Assembly (NCBI GenBank): GCA_017309115.1
Contig: JAFLEF010000004.1
Location: 171,458-235,457, forward strand
Reading direction: 5' to 3'
Length of the DNA: 64,000 nt
Origin: Verrucomicrobiota bacterium
GTDB taxonomy: Bacteria > Verrucomicrobiota > Verrucomicrobiia > Limisphaerales > UBA9464
Shown: positions 52,881-60,620 of the stretch, piece after piece
How the letters are laid out: every line of letters begins with the position of its first letter
How positions within the stretch are numbered: position 1 is the first letter of the stretch
Made by a program: the position numbers and the translations under genes
The notes under the pieces: model-generated
Told to the model about the DNA's origin: nothing
Database searches by the model: none
Seen by the model: only the letters and a program-made list of their open reading frames with translations

Positions 52881-53501
52881 ATGTCGCCTTCCCATGATCG
52901 TTCCCTTTCCCGCCAACGGCGGATTCGCTCTCTCAGCTTTGGTATGATGCTCCTCTGCCTGGGGGCCATGCTCTACCAGCTCTTTTGGGCGGCTTCGACC
53001 TGGGTTCTTCCGGTGGTTTCGTTGCCTCTCCCGTCCTACCTGGAAGTCTCCGACCATAGCCACGGCCCGAGACAGACCGTACTGGATCTCTCCGGATCCT
53101 TCCCGCGCTACCGACCAACCACTCTCAACGAAGTTTCCGACGGCTATGGAATTCAGCCCAACCGGACGACCCTGGCCCGTTGGATAGCCTTCCTCCATGT
53201 CCTCTACGGAGTCCTGGGGTCCTGGTTGCTGGTCCGACTCTTTTCTGCCTATCGGCGGTTGGGAGTGTTCGAAGTGGCCAGCGTTCGCAAACTTCGGGAT
53301 GTGGGTCTCTGGTTGGCCGGAGGGACGGTAAGGGCTCTGGTCTTCAACTTCACCAAACCATGGTGGTCGGATGGAGTACCGGGAATGCTGCTGATCGATT
53401 GGTCTAGCGGGGGGTTGTTCGCGGGAGCCTTTATCGTCTTGGTGGCCTGGATCATGGAAGAGGCCTGTGATATTGCGGAAGAACAGGCCCTAACCGTTTA
53501 A
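52881..53501 (+). CDS. DUF2975-family membrane protein
   Basis: A 206-residue protein with four predicted helices (SFGMMLLCLGAMLYQLFWAA, IAFLHVLYGVLGSWLLVRLF, VGLWLAGGTVRALVFNF, GLFAGAFIVLVAWIMEEACD). The YRRLGVFEVASVRKLRDVGL stretch and the C-terminal ACDIAEEQALTV are hallmarks of DUF2975 (YoaS-type) proteins, which are often encoded with a YozG-type regulator, as here six bases downstream. The biochemical role is unknown. Confidence 0.85.
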   Translation: MSPSHDRSLSRQRRIRSLSFGMMLLCLGAMLYQLFWAASTWVLPVVSLPLPSYLEVSDHSHGPRQTVLDLSGSFPRYRPTTLNEVSDGYGIQPNRTTLARWIAFLHVLYGVLGSWLLVRLFSAYRRLGVFEVASVRKLRDVGLWLAGGTVRALVFNFTKPWWSDGVPGMLLIDWSSGGLFAGAFIVLVAWIMEEACDIAEEQALTV

Positions 53502-53507
53502 GAGACC

Positions 53508-53795
53508 ATGCCCATCGTTGTGAATCTCGATGTGATGCTCGCCAAACGGAAACGGCGGCTCATCGACCTGGCTCAAGTGGTGGACATCACCCCAGCCAAT
53601 CTCTCGGTCCTCAAAACAGGACGCGCCCGAGCCATTCGCTTCAGCACCCTCGAGGCCATCTGCCGAGCCTTGGACTGCCAGCCCGGGGACCTCCTGGAGT
53701 TCCAGCCGGAATCCCAAGCTTCGCCCGCGGCGGTCCCCTCTCCCGCCCCTTCCCCCGATTCGACGCCCGATTTCTCGTCAGCCCAACCCGCCTAA
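53508..53795 (+). CDS. YozG-type Cro/C1-family helix-turn-helix regulator
   Basis: A 95-residue regulator: IVVNLDVMLAKRKRRLIDLA, VVDITPANLSVLKTGRARAI and RFSTLEAICRALDCQPGDLL match the short Cro/C1 regulators typically paired with DUF2975 proteins. The last 25 residues are a Pro/Ser tail. It lies six bases after its partner and shares its transcript. The 21-bp palindrome upstream is its likely binding site. Confidence 0.92.
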   Translation: MPIVVNLDVMLAKRKRRLIDLAQVVDITPANLSVLKTGRARAIRFSTLEAICRALDCQPGDLLEFQPESQASPAAVPSPAPSPDSTPDFSSAQPA

Positions 53796-53896: not shown

Positions 53897-54724
53897 TCAA
53901 GCGCTCCTTCGGCGCCGCAACTGCCATCCGGCGGCCAGACCGACCAACGCCCCGGCAATTCCCGTTCCCGACTCCGGCACCGTGGTGATAATCGCCAACC
54001 CGGTGACATCCCGATGCGGCCCGTTGCTCAGCAGCGTTGTCGCGGCCGTACTGGGATTCACGGAATAGAAGTCCCGGTGGTACCAGGTCATCGCGATCAA
54101 CGCGCCCGTGCCATCGAACTCGATGTCGCTGATGTAGCTGAACGCGTCACCGTGGCTGAGCGCGCCCACCGTGGTCGCCGAGGCGGTGTTCAAATCCAAT
54201 TCGAACAGCACATCCAGATTGTACCCCACATTTCCGCTCACAAAGAGGTCGCCGGTTGCGGGATCCCGCGCGATGCCGGTGATGTCGTAGGCTCCCAGTC
54301 CGCTGGTGATGGCTTGGGAGTAGGTGACCGACTGGGTTCCCAAGTCGAAAAAGAAGACCGTGTCGCTGGCGTTGCTGAAGCCCCAAAGCCCACCCGACGC
54401 GTAAACGAGATCGCCAATCTGGGTGTATCCGGAATTGCCGAGCGGCGTGGCTCCTTGAACGGAGTAAATCATGCCCGCCGAATCCGCGATGTAGAGCACC
54501 CCAATCGTGTCCACGGCCAAGCTGTCCGACTGGACGTTCGCCGGCAGGAACGGCACCTCGACGTTGGTGGCCGCGTCGACCACATTGATTTGCTGGTTGA
54601 AATTCAGCGCCCAGACCATTGGCGCCGCCCCAGCCGGAAGCGCTGCCAACAGTAGAGCCGACCCCATGATGCCCATTCCAAGATTCACGACCGGAATGAG
54701 CTCAAGAACTCGGGCGAATCGCAA
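53897..54724 (-). CDS. PEP-CTERM protein with propeller-like body
   Basis: A 275-residue exported protein. After a hydrophobic signal (LGMGIMGSALLLAALPAGAA) the body has repeated short beta motifs (LAVDTIGVLYIADSAGMIYS, ITGIARDPATGDLFVSGN, ISDIEFDGTGALIAMTWY), as in NHL-like propellers. The C-terminus is VPESG, a hydrophobic helix and RRRRSA: a PEP-CTERM sorting tail. The long start is a TTG at 54724, which supplies the basic n-region RFAR; an ATG at 54676 gives a shorter signal without positive charge. Function unknown. Confidence 0.78.
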   Translation of the reverse strand: MRFARVLELIPVVNLGMGIMGSALLLAALPAGAAPMVWALNFNQQINVVDAATNVEVPFLPANVQSDSLAVDTIGVLYIADSAGMIYSVQGATPLGNSGYTQIGDLVYASGGLWGFSNASDTVFFFDLGTQSVTYSQAITSGLGAYDITGIARDPATGDLFVSGNVGYNLDVLFELDLNTASATTVGALSHGDAFSYISDIEFDGTGALIAMTWYHRDFYSVNPSTAATTLLSNGPHRDVTGLAIITTVPESGTGIAGALVGLAAGWQLRRRRSA

Positions 54725-54827
54725 ACCTCAAGTGGCGAACCGGCCGAACCGCGGTCGACGGGCATGGTCCGAATCACCATCGCAGGATCTCCTTCGACCC
54801 GCTTCCCGCACCAGATAAACTCCTGCC

Positions 54828-55631
54828 ATGAACGAAGCTACAACTCGCCCCGCACGCGATCGTTGGCTGCGCCGGTTTCATCAGGTCCTGGTGGGCACCC
54901 TTTGGACCGCCACCTTCGGAGTAGTCTGCGCCTGGATCTTCAATATCCGGATGCCAGGCGGTGCGGAACCGGAACCTCTCGCCGCCCTGCTAGGTATGAT
55001 TTCCACCTCGGTGACTTGGCTGTACGGAGTGGCCGCCCGTCGCTTCGAACAGAACCGGCAACTGCTGGTCGAAACTCGGGCCGAACTCGAGGAGGAACGT
55101 TTCTCCCTCTCTCACGCCCTCGCGTACGGATATGTCCATAACTTCCTCGAACCCGCCGCCACACATTTGCTCGAACAGGCAGGCAACCGCGCCCGGGAAG
55201 TTAAGTTTTATGTGTACGTGCCCTCCGACCTGACGGAATTGGAGCCCGACGCGATCAAGCGCACCTTGGTCCGCATGCGCGAGTGGGGCTACGAAACCCG
55301 CACCCTTCAGCTGAACTTTCATCAGGCTCGCTCCCGCGATGTCATCACTCTCCTAGGCGGATCCAGTAACGAACTCCGGTATCTCGACTTCCCCACGACG
55401 TTGCTGACCCTCCGACAACTCATCGAGTACCGGCTCGAAACCCGACCGGACCGATTCCCCGCCGAAGCCCGTCGGGAGCTGGGCCAATCCTACATCGCGA
55501 TGTTTCGCAAAGAACTCGAACGATATCTCCACACCAAAGTACTCACCCGAACCGTGGTACTGGTGGATCGGGATCTCGCACCGCTGGCAACGCCGGCCCC
55601 AAGCTCCCCATCGCCAGCCCTATCCACCTGA
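54828..55631 (+). CDS. Two-TM protein with STING-like cytosolic domain
   Basis: A 267-residue protein. Two N-terminal hydrophobic segments (LVGTLWTATFGVVCAWIF, about 21-38; LAALLGMISTSVTWLYGVAA, 51-70) are followed by a coiled linker and a soluble domain. That domain has SHALAYGYVHNFLEP (Asn105-Phe106), REVKFYVYVPSDLTELEPD, RSRDVITLLGG and YLDFPTTLLTLRQLIEY. From memory of the family, bacterial STING proteins show GYxxNF with a base-stacking Phe, a VPxDL strand and a DxPTT motif that contacts cyclic di-GMP. The TM-STING layout matches. No CD-NTase or TIR gene is adjacent, which is unusual for CBASS. A divergent DUF without nucleotide binding remains possible. Confidence 0.55.
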   Translation: MNEATTRPARDRWLRRFHQVLVGTLWTATFGVVCAWIFNIRMPGGAEPEPLAALLGMISTSVTWLYGVAARRFEQNRQLLVETRAELEEERFSLSHALAYGYVHNFLEPAATHLLEQAGNRAREVKFYVYVPSDLTELEPDAIKRTLVRMREWGYETRTLQLNFHQARSRDVITLLGGSSNELRYLDFPTTLLTLRQLIEYRLETRPDRFPAEARRELGQSYIAMFRKELERYLHTKVLTRTVVLVDRDLAPLATPAPSSPSPALST

Positions 55632-55718
55632 GCCTCCAACCCGATTTCGGTCATCATCAATCTCCCGGACTCGTCGCAAACGCCTGCTCCGCCCACGCTG
55701 TCCTCGTTCGAATCTGTC

Positions 55719-56450
55719 ATGGAACCCAACCCCACGCCGCCTCCGGATAATTGCACCCATCTGTTTCGTTCCTCATGGTCGCTGTACGATGCGATTCTCG
55801 CGGGGAATTACATGTCGCACCGGGAGATTCATGCCTGCGTCCGCGAAGTGCTGATGGCCCAGGCGAACCACGGACGGTTTGCGCTACTGGATCTCGGTTG
55901 CGGCAATGCCCGCCTCCTGGCCGACACGCTTCGGACCTTGGCTCCCCGCCGTTACTTGGGCGTCGATCTTTCTCCGTCGGCCTTGGCGGAAGCAGCGCAC
56001 TATCTTCATGGGTTGCCCCACGTGGAATTGCGCGAACAGGATTTGTTGGCCTGTGCCCAGGACGAAGCGGCCGCCTCCACCGAGGTCGTCTATTCCGGTT
56101 TCGCAGTCCATCACCTGAACACCGCCGACAAACAGCGGCTGTTCCACGCGGTGGCCCGCCTACTCCGGCCCGAAGGGAGTTTCCTCCTGGTGGACGTCGT
56201 GCGCGACGAGGGACAGACCCGTGAAGCGTACCTGGAACGTTACCTGCACCTGATGCGCTCGACCTGGACCGGCATTGAACCCACTCGACTTGAAGAGGCC
56301 TGTCAACACGTGGCCGCCTTCGATTATCCCGAGATGCTGTCCGCACTGACGCAAATGAGTGTTTCCGCCGGACTGGGCGAACCCCACGTGCTCGGACAAT
56401 TCGGCGCCCATACGGTGATGCACTTTCGCCAGTCGCCGGCGATAGCCTGA
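55719..56450 (+). CDS. Class I SAM-dependent methyltransferase
   Basis: A 243-residue enzyme. It contains FALLDLGCGNARLLADTLRT (SAM motif I), YLGVDLSPSALAEAAHYLHG, VVYSGFAVHHLN and LLRPEGSFLLVDVVRDEGQT. The substrate cannot be told from the sequence. It begins 87 bases after the STING-like gene on the same strand and its stop shares one base with the next start, so the three may form one transcript. Confidence 0.88.
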   Translation: MEPNPTPPPDNCTHLFRSSWSLYDAILAGNYMSHREIHACVREVLMAQANHGRFALLDLGCGNARLLADTLRTLAPRRYLGVDLSPSALAEAAHYLHGLPHVELREQDLLACAQDEAAASTEVVYSGFAVHHLNTADKQRLFHAVARLLRPEGSFLLVDVVRDEGQTREAYLERYLHLMRSTWTGIEPTRLEEACQHVAAFDYPEMLSALTQMSVSAGLGEPHVLGQFGAHTVMHFRQSPAIA

Positions 56451-57193
56451 TGCTGCCGAGGCCGGGCGACAAAGAGTCGTTGCTCCCGTTCTGGACCACC
56501 TTCTTTGAGCCGGCCTGTCCCAACTCCCAGTTTCCCAGCATTCCCTACCTGCTCGTGGACGATTCCTGTATTGGCTCGCCCTGCCTGGCGGTGTGGTCCC
56601 AGGCCCATCAGAAAGGCACCTATGTGCCGTTTGCGGGAAGGTACACCCTCCACATTCAAGGTCCGCAGTTCTGCCAGGAAGACGTTCCGTCCGCGACGGG
56701 GATTCAGCAACGGGCCACCATTCCGGCGGACGCTCGATCTCTCAGTTTTCTCGCCAACATTTCCGGAATGATCCAGATCAAGATCAACGGGCAAACGGTT
56801 CGCGCCGTTCCCCAGGAAACGTTTGCCCGCTACACCCGCTATGCCGTCGATGTCTCCGCCCACGCCGGCCTGGAAGTGGACCTCAGTTTTTCGGCCGTTC
56901 CAACGCCCCAGTGGCCGTCGTTCGTTGGCCGTCTGCCGAACCAGACGATGTTTGAGTTGGACGATCTCCGGTTCGGGCCAGAGCCGGTGCAGTTTTCGGA
57001 CGGCCCCGGTACGATGACGCTCTATCCGGGAACCGCTGCGAACAGTTGGATCGTGGATTTCACCGGGGTACTGGAATATAGCGGGAGTCCGGGCGGTCCT
57101 TGGATTCCCGCGGAAGGACTTCTCAGCCCCCTCGAACTCGTTCCGCGTTCCGGCCCCGAAGTTCTGTTCCTTCGCGCTCGCGCTTGGCCTTAA
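56450..57193 (+). CDS. Hypothetical beta-rich protein
   Basis: A 247-residue protein whose ATG overlaps the methyltransferase stop (TGATG). No signal peptide is visible at the called start. The body is beta-rich (ARSLSFLANISGMIQIKING, YAVDVSAHAGLEVDLSFSAV, TMFELDDLRFGPEPVQ), resembling jelly-roll domains of exported PEP-CTERM-type proteins, and ends with a choice-of-anchor-like strand (VLFLRARAWP). The function is unknown; the lack of a secretion signal may mean it acts in the cytosol or has lost its leader. Confidence 0.7.
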   Translation: MLPRPGDKESLLPFWTTFFEPACPNSQFPSIPYLLVDDSCIGSPCLAVWSQAHQKGTYVPFAGRYTLHIQGPQFCQEDVPSATGIQQRATIPADARSLSFLANISGMIQIKINGQTVRAVPQETFARYTRYAVDVSAHAGLEVDLSFSAVPTPQWPSFVGRLPNQTMFELDDLRFGPEPVQFSDGPGTMTLYPGTAANSWIVDFTGVLEYSGSPGGPWIPAEGLLSPLELVPRSGPEVLFLRARAWP

Positions 57194-57581
57194 ATCGTCA
57201 CTCCGCCCCACGGTTTATTGGCGAATCAAGTCCCCGTCCAGGGCAGCGTCTCCGGGGGCTGGATCGCTTTCCATTCCTCATTAGTCAGCTGCGTATCATA
57301 CTGGGTCACGAGTTCGCCGGGGAACTGGTCTGTGCCGACCTTAAAGGGAGGCGAGCAACCCTGAGCTTCCGATTTCCAACCTTACCACGACAAGCCCACA
57401 ACACGGATATTGGCGGAGCGACGTGTCTCGTGGACCGGCACCTTGGGAAGGCAGTCCAAGAGGTGCCGGGATTTCGCTACTACGTTGCTCGGCCAGGAGA
57501 CCTGGCGATGTTGGGCACGATTACCGAACGTTCCGAAAAGGGTGACCTCACAGACCCTTTATTTCCACTGGTCAGACCTGA
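57194..57581. other. Intergenic region with decayed reading frame and hairpin
   Basis: It lies between convergent genes. A minus-strand pseudogene-like frame (57226-57550) and a 9-bp hairpin, CCGGCACCT (57435-57443) with AGGTGCCGG (57461-57469), occupy most of it. A long plus-strand frame through the area has no protein features. Confidence 0.5.
57226..57550 (-). pseudogene. Decayed coding remnant or dispersed repeat with one in-frame stop
   Basis: On the minus strand one frame reads VTLFGTFGNRAQHRQVSW, continues about 35 residues to RVVGLSW, meets TAA at 57382-57384, then continues in the same frame as GWKSEAQGCSPPF, VGTDQFPGELVTQYDTQLTN and stops at 57226. The last about 35 residues look like a genuine protein C-terminus. 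No start or family was identified, and the upstream part may instead be a dispersed non-coding repeat. Confidence 0.3.
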
Positions 57582-60500
57582 TTACGGACGGACTGGAACC
57601 ACCACTGTTCCGAGGTCTATGGGGCCTTCGCTTTCGATTGGAACGATCAGTTCATTGGTCAGGCCTCCCAGAATCAAATGCGATAGCGTCCTGCGCGAAC
57701 GTGCGATCAAGCGTTCGTAATCGTCCATGGGATCAGCCCCGGTTGGGGGTGGAAACACTCTGATCACCAGCTCATATTCTCCCGGAGGAACTTCCTCGAC
57801 CTTGAACCGACCATCGGACGCCACTGAAATACCCAGGCTCAGCCTTAAGTCACTCCTGCGAACCAGTTCTTTCATGTAGGCAATGTGCGCTCGAGTGCCC
57901 GGCGGGCCGGATTGGGGCAACGGCGGGAAGTCGATTTTCGCGGTCAGCTGTTGTTGATCGGTCTGCCAGTCAAAATCAGGAATCGGCCGTGACAATTCGA
58001 ACTGCCCAATAACCGTTTTTCCTGTGCCGCCGAGTTGAACTTGGGCCGTCTGGCCAGGAGGAACTTCAACTCGTTGGCGTTGAACGAGGATCATGGAGTT
58101 ATCAGCGCGTTTCCTTAGATGGCGCACGAGGACAGGACCGCAAGCCACGCGGTCGAAACGAAAGTGTCCTTCATTGTCTGTAACCGCTGTTTGTTGCTGT
58201 TCAACTCCGGAGACTCCGCCAGCTTCGAGCGCTGGACCCGGCCATAGCAGCACCATCTCGTTGGCGGCTGGTTTTCCCTGCAGTATCACGGTGCCCTCAA
58301 TAGTTCCCCATGGTTGCAACACGATTGGGTCTATCCGTGGTTGGCCCACAATCCATTGGGAACAGCCACCGTCGGCGACGACCAGGAGACGAACCGCTAG
58401 CGGATGCATCTTCAACGTGAAGCGTCCCAGAGCATCGGTCGTGGTCCGAGGACAGTGCCCTCCGCCGTCGGGCTTTCCGGAGTAGAGCCAGTAAGAGTCC
58501 TCGAAAAGATTCAGGATCACAATGGCTCCGCTTGCCGGCTTCCCATCGGGGTAAACAACTCGGCCGCTGAATTCGGAGCTTCGTTGTAATCGGATGGCAA
58601 AGTGTTGCTCTGCTTGCTCGCCCCCACGGAGGTCGCTGGAGGCCACGGCGTAACCGGGAGCTTCAAACTCCAGGGAGAAGCTAGGAAAGTTCCAGAGGTG
58701 CACTGGCCAATCGAAGTATCCGTCATGGCCTTCGCCAACCAACCCTGTAACGGAACTCTTAGGTTCGCCAAAGCGGACTGTGAAGGAAGGAATGGCCTCA
58801 CCCGACTCGTCATCAACCACCGTGCCCGTTATCCGTACCGTCGCGGGAATTTCACCTTTCCGGACAGATGCGTCGTCGCTGCTGGAGGCCGATAGCGCCA
58901 AAGTCAAAGGTTGGTTTGTCCGACTGACTTCAATCGTCTGACGCTTGGTTTCATGGTTTTCGGCCGAAATCTCAATAGGCAGTGGTCCCGCTTTGAAACG
59001 TCCGAGCACAAACGCGCCGGCGGAATCGCTTTCGGCAAACTCAGCCGGGCTGCCCGAAGCCGTTCGGTTGTCGTGCCGAATCTCAGCCTTCGCCAGAGGA
59101 TTGCCGTTCTCGTCGGTGATGATGCCGCTGATCATCGCTCCACTGGACAGGGTGATGACATGGTTGGTCCGCACATCGGCAGTCGAGTTTAGGGGCGCCC
59201 GGTGCCAGCTGTAGTCTGGATGCTTTACGACCAACCTTCCGCCGTTCCCTTCAAAGATTGCCGGAAGCTGGTCGACTGTGAACCTGCCAGCGGCATCAGT
59301 CCTTATGTCGGAGAGGTGTGGGTTGAAGCTGATCTGTCGTCGATCCCGGTAATTTTGCGATTGATAGTCAATTTCCACCTTCGCTCCTCTCACCGGGTTT
59401 TGGTTTTCATCAACGACGACACCTCCCAAGGTATGTCCAGGTTCCAGCCGACAAGTGTGAAGGAGAACGGGCCGGACGAATTCGTGGCGATTCCATCTGA
59501 GCAAGAGAGGAACATGACCAGAGGCCGAAACCCAAACGTTGAGAAGCCAGATGTTCGGTTCCGTCACAGGGATCTCAGCAATTCCATTGAGATCGGTTTC
59601 GGTCTCCGCGATCGCAATCACGCCAGTCGGAGCGAACCGGACTACTCGCAGTTTGGCCGTCAACGAACGGCTACCGTCGACTGTCCGCACCGAGAGGAGA
59701 ATCTTGGACGCACCGATCTCAGCCGGCGATTCAGATTGTGGAGCACCCACGAACGGTGAGGGGGGGCTTGTTGGTGGCGTCCCTTCTCCTGATGGGTTGT
59801 TGGTTTCGGCGCCCAATGCAACCGGGCTATTCCGATTAGCGCGGCGAACCCATTGGGTTGTTGCCAAAGTGAGGCACACCGCGATCGCAGTGGCCCATGG
59901 CAACAGACGGCGCAACCCCAAAAGGAACCAGCAACGCAGCGCAGCCTGGGTGAGCAAGGTTACTGGAACTGGAGCTGTTTGAGCCGTCGCGGCAACTGTC
60001 ACGGTGTCGGCGAATCCAGCCGGTGCCCCAATGGCAGGCAGTTGATTAAGGAGCACAGTCAGGCCTGTCAAAGTCAGTACTACACCACGTTTAGCGAGCA
60101 CGACACGCAGGCGTTCAACGGCCCGACTAACTCGCTTCTTCGCAGTATTCTCGCCAATGCCGAGTTGACGGCCGACTTCGGCCATGGATTTGCATTCGAA
60201 GAACCGTAGGACCACGAGATCACGGTCTCCGTTGGAAAGGCCGGCGAGGGCGGCGTCGAGGTGCGGTTCCACCTCCGTCCAATACTCAGGGACAATGGGC
60301 GCAGTTGAAGTCATAGAGTCCATGAGTGCAGCCGCGGTTTCGCGGTGTTGGCGACGTCGTTCGGTGCGAAGAGCATGGCTGGCGACGAAACGAGTGGTGC
60401 GAATCAACCATCCGCCGAGGACAACGCTTCGGGGTAAGGAATCAGCCTTTTGGGCCAGGGTAAGAAAGACGGCCTGAGTGATGTCCCGCGCGAGCTCCGG

Positions 60501-60620
60501 ATCGGCAGCTTGGCGACATGCGGAGGCATAAACGAGGCCCAGATACCGCCGGACCAGTTCCGCGAACGCGGTGTCGGAATGATGAGCAGCCCAATCTTGC
60601 AGAAGTTCCCAATCGTTCAT
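57582..60620 (-). CDS. ECF-type sigma factor fused to membrane segment and carboxypeptidase-regulatory-like ectodomain
   Basis: A 1012-residue fusion. Residues about 10-90 are sigma-70 region 2 (FAELVRRYLGLVYASACRQA, DITQAVFLTLAQKA, GWLIRTTRFVASHALR) and 125-180 region 4 (LSNGDRDLVVLRFFECKSMA, GIGENTAKKRVSRAVERLR). Hydrophobic stretches follow (VVLTLTGLTVLLNQL; LPWATAIAVCLTLATTQW, about 245-262), then some 740 residues with repeated carboxypeptidase-regulatory/CnaB-like domains (GHTLGGVVVDENQNPVRGAK, GMISGIITDENGNPLAKAEI-type strands). The sigma part should face the cytosol and the repeats the periplasm. No anti-sigma gene is adjacent. This may be a one-piece transmembrane sensor; regulation and targets are unknown. 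Confidence 0.85.
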   Translation of the reverse strand: MNDWELLQDWAAHHSDTAFAELVRRYLGLVYASACRQAADPELARDITQAVFLTLAQKADSLPRSVVLGGWLIRTTRFVASHALRTERRRQHRETAAALMDSMTSTAPIVPEYWTEVEPHLDAALAGLSNGDRDLVVLRFFECKSMAEVGRQLGIGENTAKKRVSRAVERLRVVLAKRGVVLTLTGLTVLLNQLPAIGAPAGFADTVTVAATAQTAPVPVTLLTQAALRCWFLLGLRRLLPWATAIAVCLTLATTQWVRRANRNSPVALGAETNNPSGEGTPPTSPPSPFVGAPQSESPAEIGASKILLSVRTVDGSRSLTAKLRVVRFAPTGVIAIAETETDLNGIAEIPVTEPNIWLLNVWVSASGHVPLLLRWNRHEFVRPVLLHTCRLEPGHTLGGVVVDENQNPVRGAKVEIDYQSQNYRDRRQISFNPHLSDIRTDAAGRFTVDQLPAIFEGNGGRLVVKHPDYSWHRAPLNSTADVRTNHVITLSSGAMISGIITDENGNPLAKAEIRHDNRTASGSPAEFAESDSAGAFVLGRFKAGPLPIEISAENHETKRQTIEVSRTNQPLTLALSASSSDDASVRKGEIPATVRITGTVVDDESGEAIPSFTVRFGEPKSSVTGLVGEGHDGYFDWPVHLWNFPSFSLEFEAPGYAVASSDLRGGEQAEQHFAIRLQRSSEFSGRVVYPDGKPASGAIVILNLFEDSYWLYSGKPDGGGHCPRTTTDALGRFTLKMHPLAVRLLVVADGGCSQWIVGQPRIDPIVLQPWGTIEGTVILQGKPAANEMVLLWPGPALEAGGVSGVEQQQTAVTDNEGHFRFDRVACGPVLVRHLRKRADNSMILVQRQRVEVPPGQTAQVQLGGTGKTVIGQFELSRPIPDFDWQTDQQQLTAKIDFPPLPQSGPPGTRAHIAYMKELVRRSDLRLSLGISVASDGRFKVEEVPPGEYELVIRVFPPPTGADPMDDYERLIARSRRTLSHLILGGLTNELIVPIESEGPIDLGTVVVPVRP

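Follow-up and report, generated by a model that had tools for sequence, protein, structure and literature searches.

The window analysed here, a 64,000-nucleotide stretch of contig JAFLEF010000004.1 from a Verrucomicrobiota bacterium (assembly GCA_017309115.1), carries a gene for a membrane-anchored protein of the bacterial STING family (transmembrane STING, TM-STING). The gene stands alone, with no cGAS/DncV-like nucleotidyltransferase (CD-NTase) found at its locus and no match in its genome to the GGDEF domain of diguanylate cyclases, the source of cyclic di-GMP (c-di-GMP). Our findings suggest that this solo TM-STING may respond to a signal of external origin. The gene and the parts of its protein are listed below.

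54828..55631, plus strand: solo TM-STING gene, 267 amino acids
54885..54941, plus strand: first membrane helix, residues 20-38 (Kyte-Doolittle 1.89; helix 6-37 in the predicted model)
54978..55034, plus strand: second membrane helix, residues 51-69 (Kyte-Doolittle 1.55; helix 48-124 in the predicted model)
55110..55520, plus strand: prokaryotic STING cyclic-dinucleotide-binding domain, residues 95-231 (PF20300, positions 2-137 of 137)
55143..55145, plus strand: F106, equivalent by alignment to the base-stacking F92 of FsSTING (role from PMC8748872)
55329..55337, plus strand: R168-S-R170, the class II RXR motif of the beta-strand lid, aligned with R151/R153 of FsSTING
55386..55388, plus strand: D187 of DFPTT, equivalent by alignment to D169 of FsSTING

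The window protein matches PF20300 with 71.2 bits, against a curated cut-off of 27.1, and its predicted structure, modelled as a monomer, has the STING fold. Two N-terminal hydrophobic segments lie ahead of the STING domain and appear as two long helices in the model, the second of which is predicted to extend, as one long helix, into the domain itself. The profile match, the fold and the two membrane helices confirm the TM-STING-like orphan gene that a preliminary description had picked out from the DNA letters, and its assignment as a TM-STING. The same description had proposed the Phe of a GYVHNF motif as the base-stacking residue and the Asp of DFPTT, with Thr, as a reader of the guanine of c-di-GMP, and the Phe and the Asp align with their FsSTING counterparts. 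In this predicted pocket, the stacking phenylalanine, lid arginines and aspartate of FsSTING are matched by F106, R168, R170 and D187, and the two arginines and the aspartate are invariant across the 15 TM-STINGs aligned.

The window domain is 25% identical to that of FsSTING from Flavobacteriaceae sp. (6WT4), and bacterial STING genes are described as lying near their CD-NTase (PMC12424679), which the window's gene does not. The domain and the layout of two N-terminal helices followed by a Prok_STING domain are already known from bacterial TM-STINGs (PMC10732462); the window's protein differs from these in having no CD-NTase at its locus and no conserved partner seen across its clade. Compared with TIR-STING (Cap12; for example SfSTING 7UN8, 9LMQ) and other class I STINGs, it has membrane helices instead of a TIR domain, and its lid reads RXR rather than the class I RX(Y/F), which is RXF in SfSTING (PMC8748872). 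A scan of positions 54600-57400 gave no promoter-like sites and one terminator-like site, on the minus strand, below the shuffle mean of 2.1.

PF20300 is present in nine of 294 genomes of the window's order and in five of 387 from a separate draw over the phylum, with the window's genome in both draws. The STINGs of the order fall into group A, formed by the window and genomes G219 and G157 (61-64% identity to the window), group B, TM-STINGs with 22-28% identity to the window, and group C, proteins of about 195 amino acids with no membrane helices and a class I RYY lid. A pattern built from the three group A sequences and scanned over a collection of one genome per species returned nine relatives: two Verrucomicrobiae (G219 and G157), five Cyclobacteriaceae of the Cytophagales (37-38%) and two Variovorax (32-35%). 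A survey of 100 genomes from the genus of Variovorax dokdonensis (V. dokdonensis) added two further copies, and with the window the total is 12, the yield of one pattern scan and one genus survey and not a census.

A full-length tree separates these 12 TM-STINGs as a clade from group B (support 100/100). Within the clade, the window, the other Verrucomicrobiae and the Cyclobacteriaceae are joined at 88/88, and the four Variovorax-genus copies at 87/84, a branch that is not starred and carries a long-branch warning; a wider domain tree holds the TM-STINGs together weakly (66/85). Hydrophobicity scans of eight clade members found two segments above 1.3 in seven of them and one segment in G157. 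The distribution of solo TM-STINGs is patchy, with three of 294 genomes in the order and four of 100 in the V. dokdonensis genus. That genus holds nine other STINGs, classed as "TIR-like" or "longer TM" by reading of their N-termini only. Four of its closely related STING genes (L073-L076), with a TIR-like N-terminus by reading and no CD-NTase nearby, share an apparently conserved chromosomal setting; solitary STINGs of the genus are thus not solely of the TM kind. Four Verrucomicrobiota loci (L008, L009, L010 and L026) encode STING proteins of about 195-200 amino acids with a class I RYY lid and, by reading, neither a membrane helix nor a TIR domain; they have no neighbouring CD-NTase and contain no known effector part.

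The effectors of the cyclic-oligonucleotide-based antiphage signalling system (CBASS) are recognised by a CD-NTase gene in the same operon. We searched 33 STING loci for such a gene: nine from the window's order, four from its class, five from Cyclobacteriaceae, 13 from the V. dokdonensis genus and two from the family of that genus, comprising the 12 clade members and 21 others. The search combined a profile built from 13 CD-NTases (E up to 1), a single-sequence search (E up to 0.01) and an active-site pattern; the control loci were recovered but were themselves part of the profile, and they included no canonical CBASS STING locus. No CD-NTase was found in any of the 33 loci, some of which end at a contig edge near the STING gene. 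In the window, positions 40001-64000 gave none, which bears out the earlier remark that no such gene lies next door, and the window STING has no CD-NTase in its operon. The SMODS family PF18144 (E up to 0.01 or 0.1) has matches in ten of the 33 STING genomes, on the STING gene's own contig only in G1006 (about 994 kb away) and G1022 (about 666 kb away). Among clade genomes, five of 12 have a match and seven have none.

One CD-NTase was detected in the window's genome: a CdnE on another contig (G000 C1:18377; PADLOC cyclase E 9.1e-124), encoded between BrxC and PglX, with Cap15 (PF18153, E 2.2e-27) and a TIR protein encoded next. The surrounding segment (L021:4074-15016, about 12.6-23.5 kb of contig C1 and outside the window) is a bacteriophage exclusion (BREX) locus with BrxA, BrxC and PglX by PADLOC and a BrxB-like gene by position, so that CdnE, Cap15 and the TIR protein form a CBASS embedded inside BREX. 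The nearest solved relative of this CdnE is 6E0K (E 1.8e-63), listed with 6E0L under one sequence; 6E0L is RmCdnE, which makes cyclic UMP-AMP (cUA) and reads uracil through Asn166 (PMC10442399). By an alignment with positions counted by hand, the uracil-reading Asn is kept, and a uracil-containing product is predicted for the enzyme.

These data bear on the possibility that the TM-STING is an ordinary CBASS effector served in trans by a CD-NTase encoded elsewhere in the genome. Such a split arrangement would fit the cyclase on another contig, the PF18144 match (at least one) in five of 12 clade genomes and the diffusible nature of CD-NTase products. However, the sole CD-NTase found in the window's genome is similar to RmCdnE, which makes cUA, shares the Asn that reads uracil there and has an effector of its own, Cap15, alongside; with its predicted uracil product it is therefore a poor match to a guanine-reading pocket. 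PF18144 finds nothing in seven of the 12 clade genomes, and the enzymes compared from the remaining five (the window's genome, G680, G683, G685 and G1022) differ in type. No between-genome pair matches at blastp E 1e-3 save for a weak 98-residue match between the window's enzyme and one of G1022, in a comparison that did not include a further, weak match to PF18144 in G683 (17.7 bits) or the second fragment of a broken CD-NTase in G1022. We regard the split arrangement as unlikely, although it retains some weight.

The same cells also appear to have no source of c-di-GMP. At E 1e-3, GGDEF has no match in the window's genome (95.3% complete), in G157 (89% complete) or G219 (80% complete), in the five Cyclobacteriaceae or in the four Variovorax-genus genomes, that is, in none of 12 clade genomes, and the same search found matches in eight of 14 control genomes. 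With zero matches, the window's genome gives no sign of the GGDEF diguanylate cyclases that would make c-di-GMP in the same cell. In the window's order, GGDEF occurs in 54 of 294 genomes and is missing from 240; one of the nine STING genomes has it. In the V. dokdonensis genus, by comparison, it occurs in 90 of 100 genomes, and here the STING genomes stand apart. Their 13 counts are 0, 0, 0, 0, 0, 1, 1, 1, 1, 1, 1, 1 and 2; the 87 remaining genomes have a median of 9. Two or fewer matches are found in all 13 STING genomes versus 16 of the 87 others (Fisher p 9.5e-9), and zero matches in five of 13 versus five of 87 (p 0.003). When the 13 are collapsed to seven lineages by STING type, with the 87 left uncollapsed, the test for two or fewer gives p 2.4e-5. 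All four solo TM-STING genomes of the genus have zero matches, as do only ten of the 100 genomes overall; the probability of this by chance is 5e-5, or 0.009 if they are counted as two.

Read most simply, this anti-correlation suggests that c-di-GMP is what the STINGs of the genus respond to, and that they are incompatible with an active c-di-GMP network. It argues against a receptor for endogenous c-di-GMP signalling, the non-immune sensor offered as one option in the preliminary description. The pocket does belong to a family that binds c-di-GMP, but since none of the 12 clade genomes has a GGDEF match and STING and GGDEF are anti-correlated within one genus, we consider such a sensor highly improbable. 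STING-bearing bacteria are reportedly often without canonical c-di-GMP signalling, an observation attributed to a 2020 paper by Morehouse.

In V. dokdonensis, V. soli, G1009 and G1022 (L034, L035, L070 and L072), the solo TM-STING gene is flanked by guaB and guaA and shares their strand, in four of four cases. Gaps are at most 30 bp, and in G1009 and G1022 (L070 and L072) stop and start codons overlap by one base at the guaA junction, a spacing from which co-transcription with guaB and guaA can be predicted. Compared with V. dokdonensis, guaA and guaB show 93-95% identity, and STING identity is 81% in V. soli and 33-36% in G1009 and G1022. We considered and set aside two independent insertions into the operon: the domain tree had given two unjoined pairs, and the full-length tree joins all four copies (87/84). 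A single origin is the simpler reading, and the guaB-guaA gap may be an insertion hot spot. The placement may tie the gene to the supply of guanine nucleotides, or may offer a guard gene a quiet site with good expression. Three other STING loci of the genus (L066, L068 and L071) lie within a few genes of purine genes by reading of open reading frames, a proximity seen after the fact: a purD-like gene; genes for a BMP-type lipoprotein and a guanine-deaminase-like protein; and a GMP-reductase-like gene, respectively. The guaB-like gene identified by tblastn at L071 is probably GMP reductase.

Given the guaB-STING-guaA order, TM-STING may have a role in guanine-nucleotide metabolism, for instance as a non-immune regulator that tunes envelope physiology or the supply of guanine nucleotides on sensing a guanine-derived cyclic dinucleotide. 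Arguing for such a regulator are the tight, same-strand placement in all four members of the genus, the purine genes near other STINGs of that genus (mostly by reading), and the Cyclobacteriaceae copies, which are near-invariant and keep a similar setting. Against it, there is no known ligand source in these cells, which have no GGDEF match; the gene is as patchy as described above; the divergence of the gua-operon copies between sub-clades, set against their conserved guaA and guaB, is unlike such a regulator; and the window's copy has no purine gene beside it. On balance this regulator is improbable, yet substantial enough to be kept in view.

Selection on the gene was followed through rates of nonsynonymous (dN) and synonymous (dS) substitution. 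The dN/dS values are 0.32/1.65 for the window and G157, 0.12/0.90 for V. dokdonensis and V. soli, 0.22/0.98 for G1009 and G1022, and 0.76/1.33 for the deep pair V. dokdonensis and G1009; Cyclobacteriaceae show dN of about 0.05 with saturated dS. Cyclobacteriaceae STINGs are 94-98% identical, the highest value among the neighbouring genes compared in three of four loci, with the exception of L030, where an amidohydrolase reaches 99.8% against 98.3% for STING. A decayed remnant of a CBASS operon that has lost its cyclase would account for a solo gene with no partner found, but the reading frame is intact, retention is clade-specific, and dN is low against high dS in nine pairs bar the one deep pair. 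Because of this purifying selection, we give the remnant very little probability.

The neighbours of the STING gene in the window include a divergent gene (PEP-CTERM by reading) and a class I methyltransferase:

55719..56450, plus strand: class I S-adenosylmethionine-dependent methyltransferase, judged outside the system (PF08242, E 5.4e-16)

Further neighbours are a gene with no Pfam family over cut-off, a protein with sigma-factor and carboxypeptidase-regulatory domains, and RapA. A new system formed with the methyltransferase had been raised early on, and a two-gene unit of STING and this enzyme would agree with their common strand, the 87-bp gap and the presence of a methyltransferase beside the Cyclobacteriaceae copies too. 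However, it is the gene after it that the window's methyltransferase overlaps, by one base, and none of nine window neighbour genes, the methyltransferase included, is found near the STING genes of the two nearest relatives, G219 and G157 (tblastn, E 1e-3). Both of those loci have an alpha-L-arabinofuranosidase gene upstream of STING, followed downstream by FtsK in one and by a gene with no Pfam match in the other. The Cyclobacteriaceae enzyme is encoded on the opposite strand, convergent with STING, and has no detectable similarity to the window's (BLASTP E 16). Because the linkage is not conserved, the early proposal finds no support, and we attach almost no probability to it.

Two other features of the window were also noted. 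On the minus strand, 57582-60620 encodes a 1012-residue protein with N-terminal regions 2 and 4 of extracytoplasmic function (ECF)-type sigma factors and then several carboxypeptidase-regulatory-like domains. On the plus strand, 52881-53795 marks a likely two-gene regulatory unit, in which the gene of a DUF2975 membrane protein is separated by 6 bp from that of a small HTH_26 regulator after it.

The explanation we favour, to which we give about an even chance, is that solo TM-STING is a one-gene, membrane-anchored cyclic-dinucleotide receptor and effector, triggered by foreign c-di-GMP and without a cognate cyclase. The host appears not to make c-di-GMP, so the trigger would come from outside; of the three options in the preliminary description, a ligand from elsewhere remains the best supported. 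In the proposed mechanism, the STING-domain dimer would bind a 3'3' cyclic dinucleotide that contains guanine, most likely c-di-GMP, and shut its RXR lid over it. Dimers would then pack next to one another, as they do in the filaments of known bacterial STINGs, and the resulting clusters of helix pairs may disturb the inner membrane, so that growth stops or the cell dies. The trigger would be out-of-place c-di-GMP, most plausibly made by a diguanylate cyclase from a conjugative plasmid, phage or other invader.

Diguanylate cyclases are increasingly found on mobile elements (PMC10672970). A GGDEF query from the Variovorax genus matches at least 5000 of 72,556 plasmid records (E 1e-5); of those 5000, 2892 cover at least 80% of the query and 2063 are predicted to be conjugative, and they include a 1.2-Mb Variovorax paradoxus replicon and a Comamonadaceae plasmid. 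The same query matches 118 of 50,697 phage records, 93 of them with at least 80% cover. Carriage of the STING gene itself by such elements was rejected: solo TM-STING has no match in the 72,556 plasmid records or the 50,697 phage records, and no relative was confirmed among 69 IMG/VR candidate stretches.

A eukaryotic precedent exists in choanoflagellates that have STING without a detectable cGAS-like receptor (cGLR); their STINGs bind 3'3'-c-di-GMP and have been proposed as detectors of foreign bacterial ligands (PMC12424679). Like the window's protein, these are standalone STINGs, with no detectable cyclase in the genome; the window's genome has its CdnE but no GGDEF match. They differ in having four helices and measured binding, while the window's bacterial protein has two helices and a predicted ligand.

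Several points weigh against the explanation we favour. Class II STINGs may prefer 3'3'-cGAMP (PMC8748872). Our locus search had no canonical CBASS STING as a positive control, and contig edges cut some loci. PF18144 detects clade E enzymes poorly, as the window genome's own CdnE shows with 25.3 bits against a cut-off of 26.5, and it may have missed an unlinked purine CD-NTase. GGDEF absence is the rule in the window's order, where STING genomes are no different, and for the window it is no more than consistent with a foreign trigger. The test within the genus was made without a species tree and pools TIR-like, longer TM and solo TM-STINGs, types assigned by reading. Four Variovorax-genus copies sit in the gua operon, and the conservation of the Cyclobacteriaceae copies at saturated synonymous sites is unusual for defence and the strongest point for a housekeeping role.

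A bolder possibility, which we hold tentatively and think clearly less probable than the explanation above, is a single-gene innate immune receptor of bacteria that needs no cyclase: cells without c-di-GMP of their own would treat any c-di-GMP as foreign, and die or arrest when an invading plasmid, phage or neighbour brings in a diguanylate cyclase. Among the papers listed in our literature searches, which covered few subscription journals, we saw no report of a bacterial STING clade without CD-NTases, of STING in a gua operon or of a STING-GGDEF anti-correlation inside one genus. If true, such a receptor would be a bacterial counterpart of the direct cyclic-dinucleotide sensing by animal and choanoflagellate STING. 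Published accounts present bacterial STING as the effector side of CBASS, supplied by a CD-NTase from its own operon (PMC8748872, PMC12424679). A clade over three phyla, with no linked cyclase seen and in cells without detectable diguanylate cyclase, breaks this picture. The genus-level GGDEF pattern also bears indirectly on which ligand class II (RXR) STINGs recognise, a class for which functional data are described as absent (PMC8748872). The clade also allows a direct genetic test of c-di-GMP itself as a danger signal in bacteria, and STING function without a cGAS-like enzyme becomes testable in the culturable genus Variovorax, where the gene lies in a guanine-nucleotide operon.
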